DNA of 64,000 bases from Alphaproteobacteria bacterium (GTDB lineage: Bacteria; Pseudomonadota; Alphaproteobacteria; UBA8366; GCA-2717185), in the NCBI GenBank assembly GCA_028822585.1, contig JAPKDL010000007.1:1-64000 (forward strand). The letters run 5' to 3'. Shown one piece after another: positions 1-9,140 of the stretch; position 1 is the first letter of the stretch; each line of letters starts with the position of its first letter. A program made the position numbers and the translations under genes. The notes below the pieces were generated by a model. That model was not told where the DNA came from, made no database searches, and was given only the letters and a program-made list of their open reading frames with translations.

Positions 1-24
1 ATCAGGTTTTCAGAAGGAGCTCGA

Positions 25-54
25 ATGAACAACCTCATGAGAGAGCACAGCTAG
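25..54 (+). CDS. possible 9-residue leader peptide
   Basis: An ATG at 25 follows an AAGGAG Shine-Dalgarno at a good distance and opens a nine-codon frame (MNNLMREHS) that ends in TAG. The strong ribosome site on so short a frame could be a leader peptide or uORF, but the window begins too close upstream to see a promoter and no regulated gene follows on this strand. It may equally be chance or the edge of something cut off by the window. Confidence 0.2.
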   Translation: MNNLMREHS

Positions 55-235
55 CCGGGTGAAAGTTGGCACCCAACATCGCGGCGGTTTTACTCGATGT
101 GGATTTAGGGGGCGTGGATATAGGCGGCGCCTTCGCTTGTGGCTCAGATTATGCGGCGAGCAAGGTTAGTTGATTGGAGAGACGAGCGCTGATTTGTGGC
201 GTAGCCGATGACGTTGCTGGAGTGGCGTGGGAGAT

Positions 236-509
236 TTACGGTGTTGAGCGTGTTGGGAGAGTGGACGGGGCGCGATGGGTAACGGGTTGGAACCTCGTTC
301 GAACAGAATTCCCAAACCCTTTGATGGGTCCGCCGAACAAAGCGCGGCCGGCCATGCGGGCCGCGGGTGAAATTTCGTCGCCGGTCAACTCCCAGTATAT
401 GGTGGACACAACGGGGATATGTTGCAGCGGGTTAATGACGTCGATGATATCGCCAAAGGTGAGGCCGTCGTTGCCGAAAAAAGCCGTTTAAGCTGCTGAA
501 TCGTTTCAT
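236..509 (-). pseudogene. frameshifted gene with an INPLQHIPVV-type domain
   Basis: On the minus strand an ATG at 509-507 overlaps the TGA stop of the 76-codon gene (ATGA). Eleven codons later there is a run of six T (plus-strand A run at 477-482). With five T the frame would continue through GNDGLTFGDIIDVINPLQHI and on to TGDEISPAARMAGRALFGGP, then stop at 236-238. As it stands the ATG frame ends soon after, and the conserved stretch has no start of its own. I recall this segment from uncharacterised alphaproteobacterial proteins of unknown function. The tail after GFGNSV looks eroded. It is either a young frameshift pseudogene or a homopolymer error in the assembly. Confidence 0.55.
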
Positions 510-736
510 TTTGCATTCAATAGTTCCGCCATAATTTCGATGGAGGCGTCTTCTTCGGCCATAATTTCAAGATAAAACTGATCACCGTCTGAAAGGGTTT
601 TTGGGCGTTTAGGCGTTGCGGGCGTCCCGCCTGCCGCTGCGCCAAACGTTTTTATCTCGCCCGCCGTTTCGCTAAAATATTTCGCGGCGGGAGAAAGTGG
701 CGGGGGCGCGAATCCCTGAATTGTCAAATCTTGCAT
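506..736 (-). CDS. small hypothetical protein, 76 aa
   Basis: A 76-residue protein of unknown function. The start is supported by a GGAGA ribosome site about 7 bases before the ATG. The N-terminal half is rich in Pro, Ala and Gly and probably disordered; the C-terminal half is acidic (FYLEIMAEEDASIEIMAELL) and likely helical. Its stop overlaps the ATG of the frameshifted gene at 236-509, so the two were probably translated together. No family recognised. It shares the minus strand with ribA upstream but lies about 170 bases from it. Confidence 0.5.
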   Translation of the reverse strand: MQDLTIQGFAPPPLSPAAKYFSETAGEIKTFGAAAGGTPATPKRPKTLSDGDQFYLEIMAEEDASIEIMAELLNAK

Positions 737-905
737 ATTCAGGTCTCCGCCAAAGTACAGTGCAAGCTGGGTGCTACGGTAGGTATGGTAGCTTTGCGTG
801 GTGGATGACGGTGGTGCGGTAGAATCTTTTACCCTAACGGGTCGGCGAGCATGACCCCCAGACGGCGTGGATTACCACAACCGGGAGGTTTCAAAGACCG
901 GAGCG

Positions 906-2027
906 TTACAGGATATGTCCGCCACGGACGGCCTTGGTTTGCAAGTAATGTTCGTTGTGCCCATTGGCGGGAAAGGCGTGTGGCACGCGGTCGGAGATAA
1001 TGACGCCATGCGCGGACAAGGCCGCAACCTTGGCTGGGTTGTTAGTCATCAACCGCACCGTGCGGTATCCCAGTTGCGTCAACATACTTGCGGCGGGGGT
1101 ATAGACGCGTTCATCGGCGTCGAACCCCAATCGTTCGTTGGCGTCGATGGTGTCGAATCCTGAATCTTGCAATTGGTAGGCGCGCAGCTTGTTCACCAGG
1201 CCGATGCCGCGTCCTTCCTGTGCGAGATATAGTAGAATCCCACCGCCCGCCGCCGCGATGGCGTTGACGGCACCGCGAAGTTGATCGCCGCAATCACAAC
1301 GCAGGCTGCCTAACAGGTCGCCTGTGAAGCATTCGGAATGCAGCCGCGTTAGAACTGGCGTGTCAGGGTCGGGGTTGCCGACAATAATGGCCAGATGGGT
1401 CTTGCCGCCGTCAGCGGGCCGAAAGGTGACCATCCGGGCGTCTTCGGCATTGGCCAACGGCACGTTAACTTCGACCACCGCGTCGAGCAATTCTTCGCTG
1501 GCGGCGCGATAGCGCAGAATGTCGTTGGCGTCTACGACCAGCAAGTCTTCCTGGGTCGCAAAAATATCTGGCGTCATCTCTGGTCTTCCTGGGCAATCGG
1601 CCACCAACGCCGCTGGTAACAAGCGTGCTAGTTTCACCAGTTGGACAGCCGATGTTTGCAACGCGGTCGCAACTGTTCCCGAGAAGGCGTCGCCATTTGC
1701 GGTAGCGTCACCGATAATAACATCTATATCCGTACTGGTGAGCGGCGCGGGTGATTCAACTTGGATCGCCGCATCGTCACCCTGTTTCATGCCAAGTACA
1801 TGGGCGCGCGGCGCGGTAACGACGCAGGCGGTGATCTGACCGCAAAGCGTGTTCATGGCGCCAGGGCCATTCTCGGCCGCTGCTACGATAATGGCTGATT
1901 CGGCGCTGTGCAAAACAACAGGCGTTCCGCGGCGTAAATCGCCAATCGCGCGGGCGATCGCGGTGACCGCTCTGTCATGATGCGGTGTAATTTGTTGACG
2001 TTTTGTCGTTTGTGCTCGTTCAGTCAT
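906..2027 (-). CDS. ribA: GTP cyclohydrolase II with degenerate N-terminal domain
   Basis: Opens the imidazole ring of GTP to give 2,5-diamino-6-ribosylamino-pyrimidinone phosphate, the first step of riboflavin synthesis. Residues from about 195 onward are a complete RibA: the zinc cysteines sit in SECFTGDLLGSLRCDCGD (Cys at about 233, 244, 246) and the nucleotide-binding segment is EGRGIGL near 271-277. The first roughly 170 residues resemble DHBP synthase (RibB) in outline (AIGDLRRGTPVVL then VAAAE) but lack its acidic DEDRENEGD-type catalytic segment, so this part is probably not an active RibB. I took ATG 2027 rather than the in-frame GTG three bases earlier. It starts about 10 bases after the CDP-alcohol phosphatidyltransferase stop, so the two are co-transcribed. 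Confidence 0.9.
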   Translation of the reverse strand: MTERAQTTKRQQITPHHDRAVTAIARAIGDLRRGTPVVLHSAESAIIVAAAENGPGAMNTLCGQITACVVTAPRAHVLGMKQGDDAAIQVESPAPLTSTDIDVIIGDATANGDAFSGTVATALQTSAVQLVKLARLLPAALVADCPGRPEMTPDIFATQEDLLVVDANDILRYRAASEELLDAVVEVNVPLANAEDARMVTFRPADGGKTHLAIIVGNPDPDTPVLTRLHSECFTGDLLGSLRCDCGDQLRGAVNAIAAAGGGILLYLAQEGRGIGLVNKLRAYQLQDSGFDTIDANERLGFDADERVYTPAASMLTQLGYRTVRLMTNNPAKVAALSAHGVIISDRVPHAFPANGHNEHYLQTKAVRGGHIL

Positions 2028-2037
2028 CACTTACTTG

Positions 2038-2811
2038 TTATCCATCCACCGGGGTGTCCTGCCCCCGGAGCGTCCGGCGGGTTAGCGTTATTACGTCCTT
2101 GGCGAAGGACAAGGTCAAGGACGCCAGCGCTATTGCGGCAATAAAGGATGCGGTGTACCCGGGAATGATTGGCAAAAGGCATAGGACGAGACCAACGACT
2201 TGACCGACGCAAACCAGTTTGCGGCGCATGCTTGGCGGCAATGAATAGGTCAATATCGGAAAAACATACCCTGCCGCAATGAAAACATAACGCATCCCGC
2301 CGATAATCAAAACCCAGGGGCCGGTTTTGCCTGTTTGCCAGACCAGGATTGCCAGCACCAGAATCAGGGCGGCGTCGGTTTCCATGTCGAATCGTGCGCC
2401 AAATTCACTACATTCGCCGCGCCGTCGGGCCACGTAACCATCCAGCCCGTCCGACGCCAATGCGACACCGGCCGCGCTCGCGATAAGCCACCAGAATTCG
2501 GCAGTTGGGGGGATGGTCGGAGCGTCTATGCTGTATCCCGCCAGAATCGAGGTGATCGCAGCGCGCGCCCATGTGATCTGGTTTGCAGGGTTAAAATGGC
2601 GCAACGCGTCGACGCGGGCACCAAAGGCCAGCACGGCAATGGCGGCGGCAAGATAGATTCCAGCGGCGGCGAGATCGGCGGTGATAGAAAGATCAATCCA
2701 CCACATGAACCCCATCGCGCCGATGCCCGTCCCGGCTATTGTGAACGCCGCGTGGTTGAAAGGATGGATCGACGCATAAGTGTTCATCGTTTGATTTGTG
2801 TTCCAAGACAT
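2038..2811 (-). CDS. CDP-alcohol phosphatidyltransferase family membrane protein
   Basis: Integral membrane enzyme of the family that moves a phosphatidyl or similar group from a CDP-linked donor onto an alcohol. The full catalytic signature is present: D121-x2-DG-x2-AR, then G138-x3-D142-x3-D146 (DGLDGYVARRRGECSEFGAR and onward). Six or so hydrophobic segments surround it. At 257 residues it is longer than typical PgsA, with an extra N-terminal hydrophobic part. The acceptor cannot be told from sequence. It lies directly upstream of ribA and divergent from the RibD/PTPS set, which hints at a specialised lipid or polyol product rather than bulk phospholipid synthesis. That link is inference. 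Confidence 0.85.
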   Translation of the reverse strand: MSWNTNQTMNTYASIHPFNHAAFTIAGTGIGAMGFMWWIDLSITADLAAAGIYLAAAIAVLAFGARVDALRHFNPANQITWARAAITSILAGYSIDAPTIPPTAEFWWLIASAAGVALASDGLDGYVARRRGECSEFGARFDMETDAALILVLAILVWQTGKTGPWVLIIGGMRYVFIAAGYVFPILTYSLPPSMRRKLVCVGQVVGLVLCLLPIIPGYTASFIAAIALASLTLSFAKDVITLTRRTLRGQDTPVDG

Positions 2812-2945
2812 AAAATTAAACGGTGCCCGATTACCTATAATTGATATATGTTCTGCTGGAGAAATTGGCTAATGGAAATTCTTCTTGGGGCCTATAAAAC
2901 GGCCATTCGTTTAACGCGTAGAACTGCAACATCATTGAATTTTAT
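2812..2945. promoter_or_regulatory. divergent intergenic region of the RibA/RibD-PTPS cluster
   Basis: This 134-base A+T-rich gap separates the two arms of the cluster and must hold both promoters. I see no clear riboswitch fold and no FMN-element consensus. Promoter boxes cannot be assigned with confidence by eye. Confidence 0.4.
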
Positions 2946-3800
2946 ATGACCGCACATGATAAAAATATAGCTAAATGTGAAATTATTAATGTCGAATGGC
3001 GCGAATTGCTAAAAATTTGGCAGTCTTGCCCTGTATTGGAAGTGGGATCGGAGCCATTGTCATCAGAGCCGTTATCTATGACAGCGATGCTGGCGCTGTA
3101 TGGTCCTTTATGTGAAGGTCCGGATGCCTTCGTCGCCGCCCATCTGGGCCAAAGCCTGGATGGCCGGATCGCCACGGTCAACGGCGCGTCGCATTTCGTT
3201 ACGGGTCCGGTTGATATTTTGCACAACCACCGAATGCGGGCGCTCTTTGACGCGGTGGTCGTCGGGGCGGGTACGGTCGCATTGGACAATCCAAAATTGA
3301 CCGTTCGTTTGTGCGATGGTGAAAACCCTGTGCGTGTGGTGCTGGATCCGAACCGCCGACTGGCTGCGTCGTTCGGGGTGTTTCAGGACGGTGCCGCCGA
3401 GACATTATTGATTTGTGATGAGGCGTTGGTCGGGAGTGAGGGTCGCACGGAACCCCGGCATGGAAAGGCGCTGGTCCTGGGCGCGCGCCGAGCGGTGAAT
3501 GAAATGGGCGACGAACCAGCGACGATCGGTCTGTGTCCTCGTGCTATTTTGGAAATTTTAGCGGCGCGCGGATTGTTGCGTGTGTTCGTGGAAGGCGGAG
3601 GCATCACGGTCTCGCGATTTTTACATGCGGGGTGCATCGACCGGTTGCATATAACCGTCGCGCCCATGATTTTGGGTTCGGGGCGTCCGGCGATAACCCT
3701 GCCGCTGGTGGAGTCCCTGGCCGAAGGGCACCGCCCGACCATGCGCCGGTTCGAATTCGGCGATGACATTTTATATGATTGCGGGTTCCGCGATGGATGA
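2946..3800 (+). CDS. RibD C-terminal-type (DHFR-like) reductase
   Basis: Stand-alone NAD(P)H-dependent reductase domain of the RibD/RibG family, which in riboflavin synthesis reduces the ribosylamino side chain to ribityl. Visible motifs are AHLGQSLDGRIA at about 65-76, VGAGTVALDNPKLTVR at 106-121 and FVEGGG near the C-terminal third. The N-terminal deaminase domain of full RibD is absent. The start is kept at 2946 because the family often has a short WRELL-type helix before the reductase core; ATG 3078 is an alternative. The stop overlaps the next gene's ATG. In this neighbourhood it probably acts on a pterin-like or other GTP-derived intermediate; the substrate is unproven. Confidence 0.85.
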   Translation: MTAHDKNIAKCEIINVEWRELLKIWQSCPVLEVGSEPLSSEPLSMTAMLALYGPLCEGPDAFVAAHLGQSLDGRIATVNGASHFVTGPVDILHNHRMRALFDAVVVGAGTVALDNPKLTVRLCDGENPVRVVLDPNRRLAASFGVFQDGAAETLLICDEALVGSEGRTEPRHGKALVLGARRAVNEMGDEPATIGLCPRAILEILAARGLLRVFVEGGGITVSRFLHAGCIDRLHITVAPMILGSGRPAITLPLVESLAEGHRPTMRRFEFGDDILYDCGFRDG

Positions 3801-4791
3801 CTGGGTCGAGCCCGGACTAGAATACGAGGTCGAACGGTCGTTTTGGGTTACGGCACCGGGGCAAGGAGAAATTCGCAGCGCGCCGCTCCGTGCGCCGACA
3901 TCGGAAGACGTTGTGGTCGACACCAGGCGCAGCGCCATTAGCCGGGGCACCGAAGCGTTGGTATTCCAGGGTCGTGTTCCCGCAAGCCAGTATGCCGCGA
4001 TGCGGTGTCCGTTTCAGAAAGGCGACTTTCCCGCCCCGGTTAAATATGGGTATGCGTCCGCGGGTGTTGTGCGAGGGTCCCGGCGCCGGGTATTTTGCCT
4101 GTATCCTCACCAGGACCGCTATGTCGTCCCCGCTGTATCGGTGGTCGATATCCCGAATGATGTGCCCGATGATCGGGCTGTGTTGGCGGCCAATATGGAA
4201 ACTGCCGTGAATGCGATGTGGGATGCGGCACCGTTGATTGGCGACCGGATAGCTGTGGTGGGCGGTGGTGTCGTTGGGTGTTTGGCGGCGGCGCTGTGCG
4301 GGCGTATTTATGGTGCCCAGGTTCAACTTGTCGACGTTAACCCGAACCGTGCGGCGGTTGCGGCGGCGTTGGGCGTCGGGTTCGCCGTTCCCGATGATGC
4401 GTTAGAGGCGCTGGGAGGAATGGCGGATATTGTGTTCCACGCCAGCGGCGTTGGGACCGGGTTGACGACCGCACTAGCGCTCGCCGGGTTTGAGGCGCCT
4501 ATTATTGAGATGAGTTGGTATGGCGATCGCGCGGTGTTGGCGCCGTTGGGCGAGGCGTTTCACGCCAAGCGGTTATCTATTCAAGCCAGCCAGGTTGGCG
4601 CCGTCGCCCCCAGCCGCCGGGCACGGCGGACGCGGCGGGACCGGTTAATGTTCGCGATGTCGTTATTACGCGACCCGATGTTTGATTGCCTCATCACTGG
4701 GCGCTCGTACTTTGAGGATTTACCGAAAACCATGGCGAGCCTGGCGGGCGATCCCGGTGATGCGTTATGTCATATTTTAACGTATACATAA
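3793..4791 (+). CDS. MDR-family (zinc-type alcohol dehydrogenase-like) oxidoreductase
   Basis: Medium-chain dehydrogenase/reductase with a Rossmann fold: the nucleotide motif is VVGGGVVGCLAA in mid-protein, followed by an acidic residue (QLVDVN) that favours NAD. The N-terminal segment reads AISRGTEALVFQGRVPASQY, where zinc-dependent members usually have a catalytic cysteine; the four-cysteine structural zinc lobe is also absent, so this is a divergent, perhaps zinc-free member. I chose ATG 3793, which overlaps the RibD-type stop, over ATG 3763 which would overlap it by 38 bases. The tight coupling to the reductase and PTPS-like genes points to one pathway. Substrate unknown. Confidence 0.8.
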   Translation: MDDWVEPGLEYEVERSFWVTAPGQGEIRSAPLRAPTSEDVVVDTRRSAISRGTEALVFQGRVPASQYAAMRCPFQKGDFPAPVKYGYASAGVVRGSRRRVFCLYPHQDRYVVPAVSVVDIPNDVPDDRAVLAANMETAVNAMWDAAPLIGDRIAVVGGGVVGCLAAALCGRIYGAQVQLVDVNPNRAAVAAALGVGFAVPDDALEALGGMADIVFHASGVGTGLTTALALAGFEAPIIEMSWYGDRAVLAPLGEAFHAKRLSIQASQVGAVAPSRRARRTRRDRLMFAMSLLRDPMFDCLITGRSYFEDLPKTMASLAGDPGDALCHILTYT

Positions 4792-4827
4792 TGGTGCCGC
4801 TAGCGAATTGGCCAGGAGAGTAAATTT

Positions 4828-5250
4828 ATGTTCAGCGTCACCGTTTCCAATAGCGTTATGATCGCGCATTCGCTTGCCGGGGATATCTTCGGTCCGGCGC
4901 AACGGTTGCATGGCGCGACATATGTGGTGGAAATTACAATGCGCCGCCCGGCGCTTGATGAAAACGGCATTGTCGCGGATATCGGTCGGGCGGCGGAGTT
5001 GCTGGACGATGTGTTGGCGCCGTTCTCCTATCGTAATTTGGACGATTTGCCGGAATTCGCCGGACGCAACTCTACGACAGAAGTCCTGGCGAAAGAAATA
5101 TTTGACCGCTACGTTGGGGGCGTTCATGAGGGCCGGTTGGGTGGAGATGTGGCGGGTCGATTGGCCCATGTTAATGTAACCTTGCGGGAAAAACCGGATG
5201 CTTGGGCGTCGTATGGTGCGAACCTTGATGAGATTGGCGAAGATGGATAA
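4828..5250 (+). CDS. 6-pyruvoyl-tetrahydropterin synthase / QueD-like protein lacking canonical active-site residues
   Basis: A 140-residue T-fold protein related to PTPS and QueD, enzymes that work on dihydroneopterin triphosphate. An AGGAGAG ribosome site precedes the ATG. Canonical members bind zinc by one His near the N-terminus and by both His of an HGHxY motif, and use a nearby Cys. Here His14 and His28 remain, but the HGHxY position reads LHGATY, so the third zinc ligand is Ala30, and the segment before it (FGPAQR) has no Cys. A Glu near the C-terminus (TLREKPDAWASY) is kept. It may carry out a different reaction or only bind a pterin. Confidence 0.8.
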   Translation: MFSVTVSNSVMIAHSLAGDIFGPAQRLHGATYVVEITMRRPALDENGIVADIGRAAELLDDVLAPFSYRNLDDLPEFAGRNSTTEVLAKEIFDRYVGGVHEGRLGGDVAGRLAHVNVTLREKPDAWASYGANLDEIGEDG

Positions 5251-6376
5251 ACCCACAATCCATTTCGCCATTCCCGGATCAATTCAGCGCCGGACCGGTG
5301 GTTATAACTACGACCGGCACGTCATTAGTGGATTGCGGGAACGGGGGCGTATTGTGCGCCTGTATGAATTGGACGACCCGTTTTCTGTCGCTGGGATGGA
5401 TTTGTCTTCTATTGCGCAGCGACGGAAAGCCGAAAGAACCGCAGGCAAGATGATCAGTTCGTTGCCTGAAGGCGCGGTGTTGATTATTGACGGGTTGGCC
5501 TTGCCGGCCTTTGAATCCCGACTCCGGCATGGTGCGGCGCGGCTTTGCGTCGTCGCGCTCATCCATCATTTGCTAGCGGACGAATCCGGCCTGGAGGCCG
5601 CCGAAAAACATGCCCTGCAGGAAGTGGAGCTTCGAAACCTTGGCGTTATGCGCCATGTCGTTGTCACAAGTCGGGCGACTGCCGCCACAGTGCTGCGTTT
5701 GGGGGTGTCGCGCACAAAAATTTCCGTGGTGGAGCCTGGAACTAACCAACCGGAAGACCTTCTGGGAACCAGGCAGGGAACCAAGGCAGCGAAGCATGAA
5801 CGCGGCGCAAATGGCACCATTGAGCTTATATCGGTTGGCGCCTTGATTCCGAGGAAAGGGCATTTAACGCTGCTTCAGGCTTTGGCGGCGCATCGTTCGA
5901 TGGCGTGGCGATTGACGTGTTTTGGTTCGTTGGACGCGGACCGCCAAGAGGTGGCTAAAATTCGCGCGCTTATTGAGCATGAAGACTTAACGGATAGGGT
6001 TAATTTGGCGGGTGAGGTCGACGATAAAGACTTGTACATCGCTTATCGCGACGCTGATATTTTCGTGTTGGCGTCTAAATTAGAAGGTTACGGCATGGCC
6101 TTTGCGGAAGCGCTGGCGTATGGGCTGCCCGTTGTTGGCAGCGGCGCTGGCGCGGTAGCCACAACGGTTCCCACCGACGCGGGTTTGCTGGTGGCGCCGG
6201 GAGATCCTGTCGCGTTGGCGGCGGCGTTGGAACGGGTCATGACCGATGCTTCATTCCGGGGCACGCTGGCTGCCGGCGCGGCAAAGGCTGGACGTCAATT
6301 GCCATCGTGGCGGCATACCGCCACGCAATTTGACGCTACGATCAATTCGGTCAGTCGCGCGTCATCGATTGTGTGA
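5243..6376 (+). CDS. glycosyltransferase family 4
   Basis: GT-B fold glycosyltransferase. The N-terminal half begins HFAIPGSIQRRTGGYNYD, typical of the acceptor domain. The C-terminal half has VGALIPRKGHLTLLQAL, then DIFVLASKLEGYGMAFAEAL with the conserved E-x7-E donor-binding pattern. I chose ATG 5243, which overlaps the PTPS-like stop (ATGGATAA), over upstream ATGs. No signal peptide or membrane segment is seen, so it should be cytoplasmic. Within this operon it could glycosylate the product of the RibD/PTPS branch; donor and acceptor are unknown. Confidence 0.85.
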   Translation: MDKPTIHFAIPGSIQRRTGGYNYDRHVISGLRERGRIVRLYELDDPFSVAGMDLSSIAQRRKAERTAGKMISSLPEGAVLIIDGLALPAFESRLRHGAARLCVVALIHHLLADESGLEAAEKHALQEVELRNLGVMRHVVVTSRATAATVLRLGVSRTKISVVEPGTNQPEDLLGTRQGTKAAKHERGANGTIELISVGALIPRKGHLTLLQALAAHRSMAWRLTCFGSLDADRQEVAKIRALIEHEDLTDRVNLAGEVDDKDLYIAYRDADIFVLASKLEGYGMAFAEALAYGLPVVGSGAGAVATTVPTDAGLLVAPGDPVALAAALERVMTDASFRGTLAAGAAKAGRQLPSWRHTATQFDATINSVSRASSIV

Positions 6377-7188
6377 CGGCGGATATGGAGACCTTTACCG
6401 GTGATTGGTTGGCGTTGCGGGGCGCTGCGGATCGTGCTGCGCGGTCAAAGACTCTGGCGGCCCAATTTGTATCAGTGTTGCCGTCGAACCCCCGCGTGCT
6501 GGATTTGGCGTCAGGCGGGGGTGCCAACGCGAAATATCTAGAAACCGAAATGACATGGTCCGCGCCCGGTGCGGCGCCAAGCTGGACTTTTGTGGATGGT
6601 GATACCGATTTGTTGGCGCAGGCGCGGGAGATGACGGGGCCCGTTGAATTAAGACTCGCCGATTTGTCTTCTGGCATTTCACGGGAATGGACGGCGTCGG
6701 TCGACGGCGTTACCGCGTCGGCGTTTTTCGACCTTGTGTCGTCGGACTGGTTTGAGGCGTTTGCGCATTGCGTGCGTGGTGTGCCTCTGCTGTTCGCGCT
6801 CACCATTGATGGTCGGTGGCGCTGGAGTCCGGCGCATGACCGCGACAATGATATCATGGCGGTGTTCGCCCGTGACCAAAAGCGTGACAAGGGATTCGGT
6901 CCAGCGATGGGCGGTGGCGCGGCGATGGCGATGATACGAATTTTAAACGCCCACGGGTTCATCGTGTCCAGCCGCCCGGCGGATTGGCGTCTTGGCACCG
7001 CTCATGCGGCGCTTTTGGAGGCTTTAATTCAAAATATCGCGGCCGCCGTGACGCCCTATGGCACCGATACATTGGGATGGCTGACCTGCCGCCGCCAGCA
7101 AATAGGACAAGGTGAATTGCGGTTGCGGTTGGGCCATCTTGACCTGTTTGCCAGGCCCGCCTTGTTCTCTGACAGCGAGGTGTCATAG
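6373..7188 (+). CDS. class I SAM-dependent methyltransferase
   Basis: Rossmann-type methyltransferase; motif I is RVLDLASGGGANAKYL at about 41-56 and the acidic post-I loop is TFVDGD. The GTG at 6373 overlaps the glycosyltransferase stop by two bases; ATG 6385 is an equally fair start. Translational coupling with the four genes before it makes it the last gene of the plus-strand arm. The substrate is likely the same small molecule the other enzymes build. A gap of about 200 bases follows before the response regulator. Confidence 0.8.
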   Translation: MTADMETFTGDWLALRGAADRAARSKTLAAQFVSVLPSNPRVLDLASGGGANAKYLETEMTWSAPGAAPSWTFVDGDTDLLAQAREMTGPVELRLADLSSGISREWTASVDGVTASAFFDLVSSDWFEAFAHCVRGVPLLFALTIDGRWRWSPAHDRDNDIMAVFARDQKRDKGFGPAMGGGAAMAMIRILNAHGFIVSSRPADWRLGTAHAALLEALIQNIAAAVTPYGTDTLGWLTCRRQQIGQGELRLRLGHLDLFARPALFSDSEVS

Positions 7189-7291
7189 AATTAACGGTCA
7201 GTGGGCTGATCGAAACGCTTGGTTTCCAATCCTTTTGAACAGACAATAAACTATTGATTTAGAGGGGAGTTTATCAAATTGAATGGGCACC

Positions 7292-7315
7292 ATCCGTTTT
7301 GGTTGCGCCACTAGA
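7292..7315 (+). promoter_or_regulatory. copy 1 of a shared 24-bp motif
   Basis: The sequence ATCCGTTTTGGTTGCGCCAC (then TAGA) lies 70 bases before the response-regulator start. A copy with one difference occurs at 31610-31633 before the FAD hydroxylase gene. In the second copy the core GTGGCGCCAC is a perfect palindrome. Both lie between genes and in the same orientation relative to the next plus-strand gene. Role unknown; an operator or promoter element is possible. Confidence 0.45.
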
Positions 7316-7385
7316 ATATGACGCTCCCGGTAAATATACGCTATAGTGGCGAGACTAACGGAGAGACCTAGATGCTGAGGGCTGG

Positions 7386-8072
7386 ATGATCGGAAAAAAA
7401 GTATTGTTGGTGGATGATGACGAAGCGCTTGGTGAGTCGTTGTCGGAACAGTTGCGGCTCAATGAAGAGTTCGAAACCACCGTTGCGGGCACTGCATCCG
7501 AGGGACTGGGAATTGCGAAGACTGATTACTTCGACGCCCTTCTTCTGGATGTGGATCTGCCAGATATGGATGGCTGGGAGGCCTGCCGCTTGATGCGCCG
7601 GAACGGTGTGACGGCGCCAATTATCATGTTGACCGGCGCTGATACGGATGTGGATGCGATTTTGGGTTTGGATGCAGGGGCCAACGACTATGTGACTAAG
7701 CCGTTTCGGTTGGGCGTGTTGTTGGCGCGTCTGCGGGCTCAGCTTCACCAGCACGAACAGAGTGAAGATGGGATGTTCACCATTGGGCCTTATTCATTTC
7801 TGCCCAGCGGGAAAATTCTTGTCGACGATGAAACGGAACGAAAAGTTCGGTTGACGGAAAAGGAAACCGCGATTTTAAAATATTTGTACCGGTCGGGAGA
7901 TAAGGTTGTGGATCGGGACACGTTATTGGACGAAGTGTGGGGATATAACGCGGGTGTCACAACACATACGCTGGAAACCCATGTGTATCGGTTGCGGCAA
8001 AAAATTGAACGTGATCCGTCCAATTCCGAAATCCTTGTGACGGAGCCCGGCGGTTATCGCCTGGCCCCCTGA
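7386..8072 (+). CDS. OmpR/PhoB-family response regulator
   Basis: Two-domain transcription regulator. The receiver domain (about 1-120) has the acidic pocket VDDDE at 9-13, phospho-acceptor Asp55 (LLLDVDLPDMDG), Thr83 and Lys105 (VTKPF). The C-terminal winged-helix domain (about 130-228) ends in the family's typical HVYRLRQKI recognition-helix region and a GYRL wing. No sensor kinase is adjacent, so it is an orphan here. It is followed 24 bases later by a metallo-hydrolase gene, probably in one transcript. Regulon unknown. Confidence 0.92.
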   Translation: MIGKKVLLVDDDEALGESLSEQLRLNEEFETTVAGTASEGLGIAKTDYFDALLLDVDLPDMDGWEACRLMRRNGVTAPIIMLTGADTDVDAILGLDAGANDYVTKPFRLGVLLARLRAQLHQHEQSEDGMFTIGPYSFLPSGKILVDDETERKVRLTEKETAILKYLYRSGDKVVDRDTLLDEVWGYNAGVTTHTLETHVYRLRQKIERDPSNSEILVTEPGGYRLAP

Positions 8073-8096
8073 GGTTGGGATAGGGGTCGTAGTTTG

Positions 8097-8927
8097 ATGG
8101 AATGGACCGACTTTTCCGTGAAATTCTGGGGTGTGCGCGGCAGCATTGCGTGCCCGGGCCCGTCAACTGTGCGCTATGGCGGAAATACATCGTGTCTGGA
8201 GGTTATGTGTGGCGACCGCCGGTTGATTTTTGATGGGGGCACCGGGCTGCGAACTCTGGGTCAAACGATGATGGGGCAAAACCCCTGCGATGTTGATTTA
8301 TTGCTGACGCATACGCATTTTGACCATGTTTGCGGCTTGCCATTTTTTGCGCCGTTCTATATTCCCGGCAACAAGATCCGGCTATGGGCGGGCCATTTGG
8401 ATGCGGAGCTTGGCGTGGAGAAAGTGATCCATGACATGATGATTGCGCCATTGTTTCCCGTGCCGCCGGGCGCGTTTCAAGCGGAGGTATCTTATAATGA
8501 TTTTGAATGTGGAACGACCCTGACGTTGGGTGACGGCGTTTCTGTCCGCACATGCGCGCTCAATCATCCCAACCGCGCGACCGGTTATCGGGTTGATTTT
8601 GAGGGTCGGTCATTGTGCTATATCACCGATACGGAACATGTTGAAGGCGAACGTGACGCAGCGATTGTCAAGCTGATTCAAGACGCCGATCTCGTCATTT
8701 ACGATTCCACGTTCACCGATGCGGAATATTCTAAATTCAAAGGTTATGGACATTCGACGTGGGAGGAAGGAGTTCGTCTGGCCGACGAGGCGCATGTAAA
8801 GACCTTGGTCTTGTTCCACCATGACCCAAGCCATGACGACGATTTTATGGACCAAGTAGCGAAAGATGCCGAAACCTCGCGGCCCGGCACGCTGGTAGCG
8901 CGCGAAGGCGATACTTTGTTACCATGA
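8097..8927 (+). CDS. MBL-fold metallo-hydrolase
   Basis: Metallo-beta-lactamase-fold protein of the PhnP/phosphodiesterase-like branch. The N-terminus has the GVRGSI signature of this branch, and THTHFDH at about 71-77 is the HxHxDH metal site; later metal ligands are visible in NHPN, ITDTEH and LFHHDPSHDD. ATG 8097 is taken rather than the TTG three bases before it. The gene sits right behind a response regulator, suggesting a signalling role such as hydrolysis of a phosphodiester second messenger, but this is inference from position. Confidence 0.85.
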   Translation: MEWTDFSVKFWGVRGSIACPGPSTVRYGGNTSCLEVMCGDRRLIFDGGTGLRTLGQTMMGQNPCDVDLLLTHTHFDHVCGLPFFAPFYIPGNKIRLWAGHLDAELGVEKVIHDMMIAPLFPVPPGAFQAEVSYNDFECGTTLTLGDGVSVRTCALNHPNRATGYRVDFEGRSLCYITDTEHVEGERDAAIVKLIQDADLVIYDSTFTDAEYSKFKGYGHSTWEEGVRLADEAHVKTLVLFHHDPSHDDDFMDQVAKDAETSRPGTLVAREGDTLLP

Positions 8928-8951
8928 GAGGGTCCCTATGAGAGGACGCCC

Positions 8952-9140
8952 ATGAAGTGGCACCTGCCGCAGGACGATAGCGAGCGGTTGGCCACTTGGC
9001 CACGGCGGGACTTTAAGAGCGTGGCTAAGCGCAGGGGTATGCGCTGGTGGTGCCCCGCGATCACACGATGATGATTATTAAAGGCGTGGCGGAGCCGGTC
9101 GATGTCGTTGTGCTGGCCGATAAATTTTGGGTGACTGAAT
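8952..9140 (+). pseudogene. possible remnant of a small gene
   Basis: After the MBL gene a frame starting at ATG 8952 reads MKWHLPQDDSERLATWPRRD and stops early at a TGA near 9070. A second frame, open from about 9047, continues with HTMMIIKGVAEPVDVVVLAD and KFWVTEF up to the end of the convergent permease gene. The two halves join into a plausible small protein if one frameshift is allowed near 9050. I do not recognise the family. It could also be a coincidence of two short frames. Confidence 0.3.

Follow-up and report, generated by a model that had tools for sequence, protein, structure and literature searches.

A widely distributed gene cluster in an alphaproteobacterium combines riboflavin-type and pterin-type enzymes in a candidate pathway from GTP

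The window analyzed here, a stretch of 64,000 nucleotides (nt) of alphaproteobacterial DNA (contig JAPKDL010000007.1 of assembly GCA_028822585.1, positions 1 to 64,000), carries near its start seven genes in two divergent arms (Table 1). They encode a GTP cyclohydrolase II (RibA), a CDP-alcohol phosphatidyltransferase (CDP-OH), a RibD reductase domain (RibD_C), an MDR oxidoreductase, a PTPS-fold protein, a GT4 glycosyltransferase, and a methyltransferase (MT), and very likely represent a dedicated, widely spread, and apparently undescribed pathway. All seven open reading frames (ORFs) of the initial annotation are present, with the coordinates and strands it gave, and its family assignments hold, with Pfam scores of 194 bits for GTP_cyclohydro2, 63 for CDP-OH_P_transf, 122 for RibD_C, 80 for PTPS, and 95 for Glycos_transf_1. 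The MDR protein, at 30.5 bits, is slightly short of the ADH_zinc_N cutoff of 31.8, and the MT is a class I methyltransferase that scores under the Pfam cutoff.

The plus arm had been described as coupled by overlapping start and stop codons, which is the case at three of its four junctions. MDR probably starts at the ATG at 3793 and shares 8 nt with the end of RibD_C (stop TGA, 3798-3800), GT4 probably starts at the ATG at 5243 and shares 8 nt with the end of PTPS (stop TAA, 5248-5250), and MT, with its GTG start at 6373, shares 4 nt with the end of GT4; at the fourth junction, 36 nt separate MDR from PTPS. The called starts of MDR (3763) and GT4 (5198) are probably too far upstream. An Rfam search of positions 1 to 9000, which include the 134-bp intergenic region between the arms, returned no riboswitch, of the FMN type or any other; this intergenic region contains no consensus sigma-70 site, and promoter and terminator scans gave no signal clearly above that of shuffled sequences.

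Table 1. Genes and other features of the locus, in window coordinates
Feature	Position	Strand	Basis or remark
RibA, GTP cyclohydrolase II, with degenerate N-terminal extension (PRK08815-like)	906..2030	-	Pfam and model scores, Zn ligands
CDP-alcohol phosphatidyltransferase (CDP-OH), 257 amino acids (aa)	2038..2811	-	Full catalytic motif; nearest fold phosphatidylglycerol-phosphate synthase
Divergent intergenic region, 134 bp	2812..2945		Presumed promoters for both arms
RibD_C reductase domain alone, cluster-specific subfamily	2946..3800	+	Deaminase domain absent
MDR oxidoreductase, weakly BchC-like subfamily	3793..4791	+	Likely start 3793, called 3763
PTPS-fold protein, SCO6650 subfamily	4828..5250	+	Active-site residues
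GT4 glycosyltransferase	5243..6376	+	Likely start 5243, called 5198
Class I S-adenosylmethionine (SAM) methyltransferase (MT), unnamed family	6373..7188	+	No NCBIfam or PDB sequence match
Flank outside the pathway: response regulator and MBL-fold hydrolase	7386..8927	+	

The PTPS and MDR subfamilies of this locus occur in exactly the same genomes. Among 397 genomes drawn phylum-wide, 31 score at least 150 bits against a profile of the PTPS subfamily (next best, 53), and the identical 31 score at least 314 bits against that of the MDR subfamily (next best, 110). Within the 12.8 to 20 kb surrounding these 31 loci, GT4 is present in 30, MT in 29 (several of them fused to GT4), and RibD_C in 27; CDP-OH (15 loci), a PF03706 membrane protein (14, with two forms counted), RibA (13), FkbM methyltransferase (10), creatininase (7), cytochrome b561 (7), and sulfatase-like genes (6) are also found there. 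Unassigned neighboring ORFs were grouped by strict clustering, and some of the resulting groups are antisense shadows. When whole genomes are counted, 28 of the 31 have the cluster type of RibD_C and 17 have CDP-OH.

A scan of named genomes yielded at least 588 relatives, and the 80 that were retained belong to the Actinomycetota, the Alpha-, Beta-, and Gammaproteobacteria, the Acidobacteriota, and the Myxococcota. The 57 of these with complete loci (6 kb on each side) all contain MDR and GT4, and 56 contain MT, 49 CDP-OH, 45 RibA, 45 PF03706, 44 RibD_C, and 22 a creatininase gene. The pairwise distances show correlations between the seven families, with r values of 0.49 to 0.93, most at least 0.6, although these are raw values that shared descent alone also raises. 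A haloarchaeal plasmid, from Halomicrococcus gelatinilyticus (locus L128, 6897-10410), carries MDR-PTPS-GT4-MT in the same order, followed by an aminotransferase gene. CDP-OH, the same four genes, PF03706, and RibD_C are on a mobilizable Microbacterium plasmid (locus L129, 8194-13969), so that horizontal movement of the set is possible. Cluster genes are likewise seen in annotated loci of Streptomyces, Thiodictyon, Peteryoungia, and Microbacterium.

The grouping of these genes is not due to chance, and their co-conservation is far above chance expectation. The predicted association thus passed the neighborhood survey strongly, with PTPS and MDR adjacent and on one strand in 31 of 31 genomes, but the set of seven families resolves into a core of MDR-PTPS-GT4-MT-RibD_C with RibA and CDP-OH as frequent but optional members. 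Similar neighborhoods, which the initial annotation had placed in alphaproteobacteria, do occur there, but their range is far wider, covering several phyla and the haloarchaeal plasmid.

On sequence grounds, the RibD_C of the window is clearly distinguishable from a housekeeping copy. Pfam finds no deaminase half, and the 102 bits scored against the bifunctional RibD model TIGR00326 (cutoff, 156) come from the reductase part only. Cluster RibD_C proteins score at least 225 bits versus at most 160 for housekeeping RibD, and nearly every genome with a cluster copy also has a housekeeping one. Because the deaminase half is absent, the product should keep its 2-amino group, which points to a pterin and not a flavin.

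The RibA of the window retains the zinc ligands (C54, C65, and C67 in Escherichia coli numbering) and Y105, and scores 208.5 bits against TIGR00505 (cutoff, 205.85), as a GTP cyclohydrolase II with all three zinc Cys residues. With these residues kept, it is expected to be of the canonical APy-forming type. Residues were numbered by the sequences of QueD and of E. coli RibA, and the PTPS result described below matches PDB alignments. Riboflavin genes form a complete operon elsewhere in the genome, where bifunctional ribD, ribE, ribBA, and ribH lie together on contig C190; as had been noted, ribB, ribH, and ribE are absent from the seven-gene locus, as is the RibD deaminase domain. In the RibBA of contig C190, N, S, and R replace the three zinc Cys of the GTP cyclohydrolase II half, and the same loss is seen in the RibBA copies that were examined from its order (L131-L150). 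The window RibA is therefore the sole intact GTP cyclohydrolase II (PF00925) found in the genome.

Several relatives appear to do without such an enzyme. No intact PF00925 protein was found in eight of them (G012, G013, G017, G018, G020, G027, G029, and G037), and nearly all relatives without intact RibA have a creatininase-family gene, likely BrbF. The genome under study (G000) also has one BrbF-like gene of this family, on contig C158. Because this gene exists and several relatives lack an intact RibA, the window RibA, which may help in riboflavin synthesis, is probably not essential for it. In Sinorhizobium and Brucella, Yurgel et al. (2022) showed that riboflavin synthesis involves BrbF, a formamidase of the creatininase family, along with a GTP cyclohydrolase ("BrbG") that is yet to be identified (PMC9478397).

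Creatininase-family genes also accompany particular forms of RibA within other clusters. Where E. coli position 105 is occupied by Met, His, Gln, Cys, or Ile instead of Tyr, 15 of 15 RibAs have a creatininase neighbor, as opposed to 13 of 60 where it is Tyr. A change from Tyr to Met at this position reportedly stops the enzyme at a formylamino intermediate, according to a study in Streptomyces coelicolor. BrbF is a proven formamidase of the same intermediate (PMC9478397). Among the creatininase-family neighbors, the proteobacterial ones share 43 to 48% identity with the copies in the genomes of relatives, some of them lacking an intact GTP cyclohydrolase II, and the actinobacterial ones about 32%. 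The pairing of a changed Tyr105 with a creatininase neighbor is chemically sensible and is suggestive of clusters built to supply 2,5-diamino-6-ribosylaminopyrimidinone phosphate. With a RibA of the Tyr type, the window cluster does not need a creatininase, and, unlike in some other clusters, no gene of this family lies beside its RibA.

The PTPS-fold protein is an orthologue of SCO6650 of S. coelicolor (PDB 3d7j), a protein whose function is, to our knowledge, undescribed. The match amounts to 137 bits with the sequence alone and 194 bits with the family profile; the window protein shares the motif AQRLHGAT and has the residues that define the subfamily (A24, H28, A30, E85, and E121 in window numbering), with H14 also kept. 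The T-fold, the PTPS Pfam family, and the positions of the first two zinc His and of the Glu residues are common to this subfamily, QueD, and eukaryotic PTPS, but the subfamily has Ala in place of the catalytic Cys and the third zinc His. Both are Ala in 129 of 129 homologues, in which two His and two Glu are invariant; the window protein has no Cys at all, hence none at the place that precedes the HxH motif in PTPS and QueD, and scores 41.5 bits against the QueD model TIGR03367 (cutoff, 89). Judged by these residues, the protein is incapable of the standard PTPS or QueD reaction, though binding of a pterin-like ligand is probably retained. The haloarchaeal PTPS keeps all three zinc His and lacks the Cys. 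A separate QueD-like gene lies on contig C152. Full-text searches in an open-access library, to the exclusion of subscription papers, turned up no description of the cluster, its genes, or SCO6650 and SCO6655, the last being mentioned only in an unrelated metabolic model.

The remaining enzymes of the plus arm are less readily matched to known functions. MDR scores 51 bits against TIGR01202 (BchC; cutoff, 291), its subfamily is distant from both BchC and the solved MDR structures, and its orthologues in other clusters are annotated as "zinc-binding alcohol dehydrogenase." The solved structures nearest to GT4 are Tll1590 and the glycosyltransferases 3c48 and 3c4q, which we take to be MshA, an enzyme that glycosylates inositol phosphate. 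MT matches no named model and no NCBIfam or PDB sequence; a fold search with its predicted structure (pLDDT, 92.5) returned many small-molecule methyltransferases at 10 to 19% identity, matches so numerous and distant that its substrate is not inferable. GT4-MT fusions of about 640 to 660 aa occur at nine loci, mostly of the Marinobacter type (e.g., locus L084, 10353-12332), and such fusion supports consecutive action of the two enzymes.

With about even confidence, we propose that the cluster converts GTP, by way of ribityl-diaminopyrimidine phosphate, into a pterin-like product that carries a sugar and a methyl group and is, here, probably lipid linked; the entry from GTP through ribityl-diaminopyrimidine phosphate is, taken by itself, fairly likely. 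The analysis shows the content and order of the genes, their broad co-inheritance, the state of the active sites, the lack of a deaminase domain, and the separate riboflavin operon and QueD-like gene; the individual reactions and their sequence, like the pterin ring and the link to a lipid, are inferred. RibA would open GTP to yield 2,5-diamino-6-ribosylamino-4(3H)-pyrimidinone 5'-phosphate, and the stand-alone RibD_C would reduce its ribosyl to a ribityl group without deamination, giving a 2-amino (guanine- or pterin-type) ribityl-diaminopyrimidine phosphate. The zinc-free PTPS-fold protein would bind this compound or a pterin derived from it and, with MDR, remodel the ring or side chain; glycosylation would fall to GT4 and methylation to MT. 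In the window lineage and about half of those surveyed, the PgsA-like CDP-OH would probably join the polyol phosphate to a phosphatidyl group, forming a phospholipid with a pterin-like head, and the PF03706 membrane protein, where encoded, would move the lipid product.

The last steps would depend on CDP-OH, which carries the whole superfamily motif D(x2)DG(x2)AR(x8)G(x3)D(x3)D, with motif residues invariant in 16 homologues. The fold nearest to its predicted structure (pLDDT, 86.7) is that of PgsA (7drj and 7drk; TM scores of 0.70 to 0.75 by target length in Foldseek), which has the same catalytic motif. CDP-OH differs from PgsA in its far lower sequence score (37.6 bits against TIGR00560, with a cutoff of 109), its extra N-terminal helices, and its genomic context. 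The substrate of PgsA, glycerol 3-phosphate, is a polyol phosphate, as the product of RibD_C would be. That the product is lipid linked in the window lineage is nevertheless a tentative proposal, and its extension is a somewhat unlikely one: a new class of membrane phospholipid, spread through proteobacteria and actinobacteria, in which a GTP-derived pterin (or ribityl-aminopyrimidine) bearing a sugar and a methyl group forms the head, and which has a soluble or ether-lipid counterpart in haloarchaea. PF03706 (LPG_synthase_TM, flippase-like) follows MT in most named clusters (e.g., locus L093, 12347-13426); it is absent from the window locus, and one PF03706 protein is encoded elsewhere in the genome, on contig C91.

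Several observations weigh against the proposed pathway. The Foldseek E values of CDP-OH are weak (best, 1.9e-3), and CDP-OH is absent genome-wide from 14 of the 31 cluster genomes of the phylum sample, so the lipid link cannot be universal. RibD_C is not near the cluster in the Streptomyces, Amycolatopsis, and Actinomadura types or in the archaeal version, where a ribityl chain is therefore either formed by another enzyme or not formed at all. The link between Tyr105 and creatininase comes down to two changes that arose independently in the RibA tree, which makes the association suggestive but not significant.

The absence of CDP-OH from those 14 genomes, the near-invariance of MDR-PTPS-GT4-MT, and the restriction of the haloarchaeal cluster to these four genes are all consistent with a product that has the same entry but stays soluble, such as a glycosylated, methylated pterin or ribityl-pyrimidine serving as a pigment, UV screen, signal, or secreted antimetabolite, CDP-OH then being accessory or making an unrelated lipid. 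We regard such a product as rather unlikely, since CDP-OH distances correlate with those of GT4 (r = 0.86) and MT (r = 0.87), CDP-OH accompanies the core in 49 of the 57 complete named loci, and PF03706 and sulfatase-like membrane genes are frequent neighbors. A redox or one-carbon cofactor, that is, a modified pterin serving cytochrome b561 or other oxidoreductases, would suit the wide distribution among phyla and the cytochrome b561 genes that 7 of 31 loci have close to RibD_C or MT. This is quite improbable given that no dependent enzyme family consistently co-occurs, that only about 8% of sampled genomes have the cluster, and that membrane and glycosyl genes are a poor match for a cofactor.

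The entry from GTP through RibA has rivals of its own. RibD_C enzymes are catalytically versatile, and RibA, which is near only 13 of 31 loci and is the sole intact GTP cyclohydrolase II of the genome, might be there for riboflavin while RibD_C reduces a pterin from another route (e.g., FolE). This is improbable to a slightly greater degree than a cofactor, because the distances of RibD_C and RibA have the highest correlation of all pairs (r = 0.93 in 57 loci) and RibD_C is best matched by the RibD_Cterm and ribosylamino-pyrimidine reductase models. That RibA and RibD_C are housekeeping riboflavin genes beside an unrelated envelope operon, as the lost zinc ligands of the genome's RibBA might suggest, is highly improbable and largely refuted by the complete operon of bifunctional RibD, RibE, RibBA, and RibH elsewhere, by the BrbF-like gene as an alternative route with relatives that live without intact RibA, and by the separate RibD_C subfamily beside a housekeeping RibD in nearly all genomes; the objection fails for RibD_C and is half true for RibA. 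A dedicated pathway on GTP-derived pyrimidines, as first suggested from the gene content, is thus supported by the neighborhood survey, the separate rib operon, and the distinct RibD_C.

Outside the pathway, the flanking response regulator is conserved only at loci from the same family as the window and from close relatives in its order. Rhizobiaceae-type loci (L127, 3472-6883; also L173 and L175) have sulfatase-like, PF03706, and FkbM methyltransferase genes beyond CDP-OH, and many Micromonospora loci are flanked by sulfatase-like genes.

A pathway of five to seven genes with a near-invariant core, present in several phyla and on plasmids, probably means a metabolite made by many cultivable bacteria, among them Halomonas, Marinobacter, Micromonospora, Streptomyces, and Rhizobiaceae. 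It would provide a role for the SCO6650 family, which has a solved structure but no explanation, would explain extra RibA and RibD copies annotated as riboflavin genes, and bears on how riboflavin synthesis starts in the many alphaproteobacteria without an intact GTP cyclohydrolase II. The cluster combines known enzyme families into a new pathway variant, and would be a new molecule class only if a lipid or pterin product is demonstrated.

Among known systems, the bacterial riboflavin pathway shares RibA and the RibD reductase half with the cluster, and hence the same first intermediates, but the cluster has no RibD deaminase domain, RibB, RibH, or RibE. Toxoflavin-type azapteridine clusters also bring together RibA-type, RibD-type, and methyltransferase genes; the window cluster differs from them in its stand-alone RibD_C and in having PTPS, MDR, GT4, and CDP-OH. 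Riboflavin synthesis in archaea and fungi proceeds by reduction without prior deamination, an order that the RibD_C step would match. The Streptomyces-type (SCO6650) clusters, with their Tyr105-changed RibA and creatininase and no RibD_C nearby, are unlike that of the window, and the creatininase neighbor of other clusters resembles BrbF-type deformylases (PMC9478397). The window cluster is set apart from both the archaeal and fungal branch and the BrbF route in that it has no creatininase and its products would feed tailoring enzymes.

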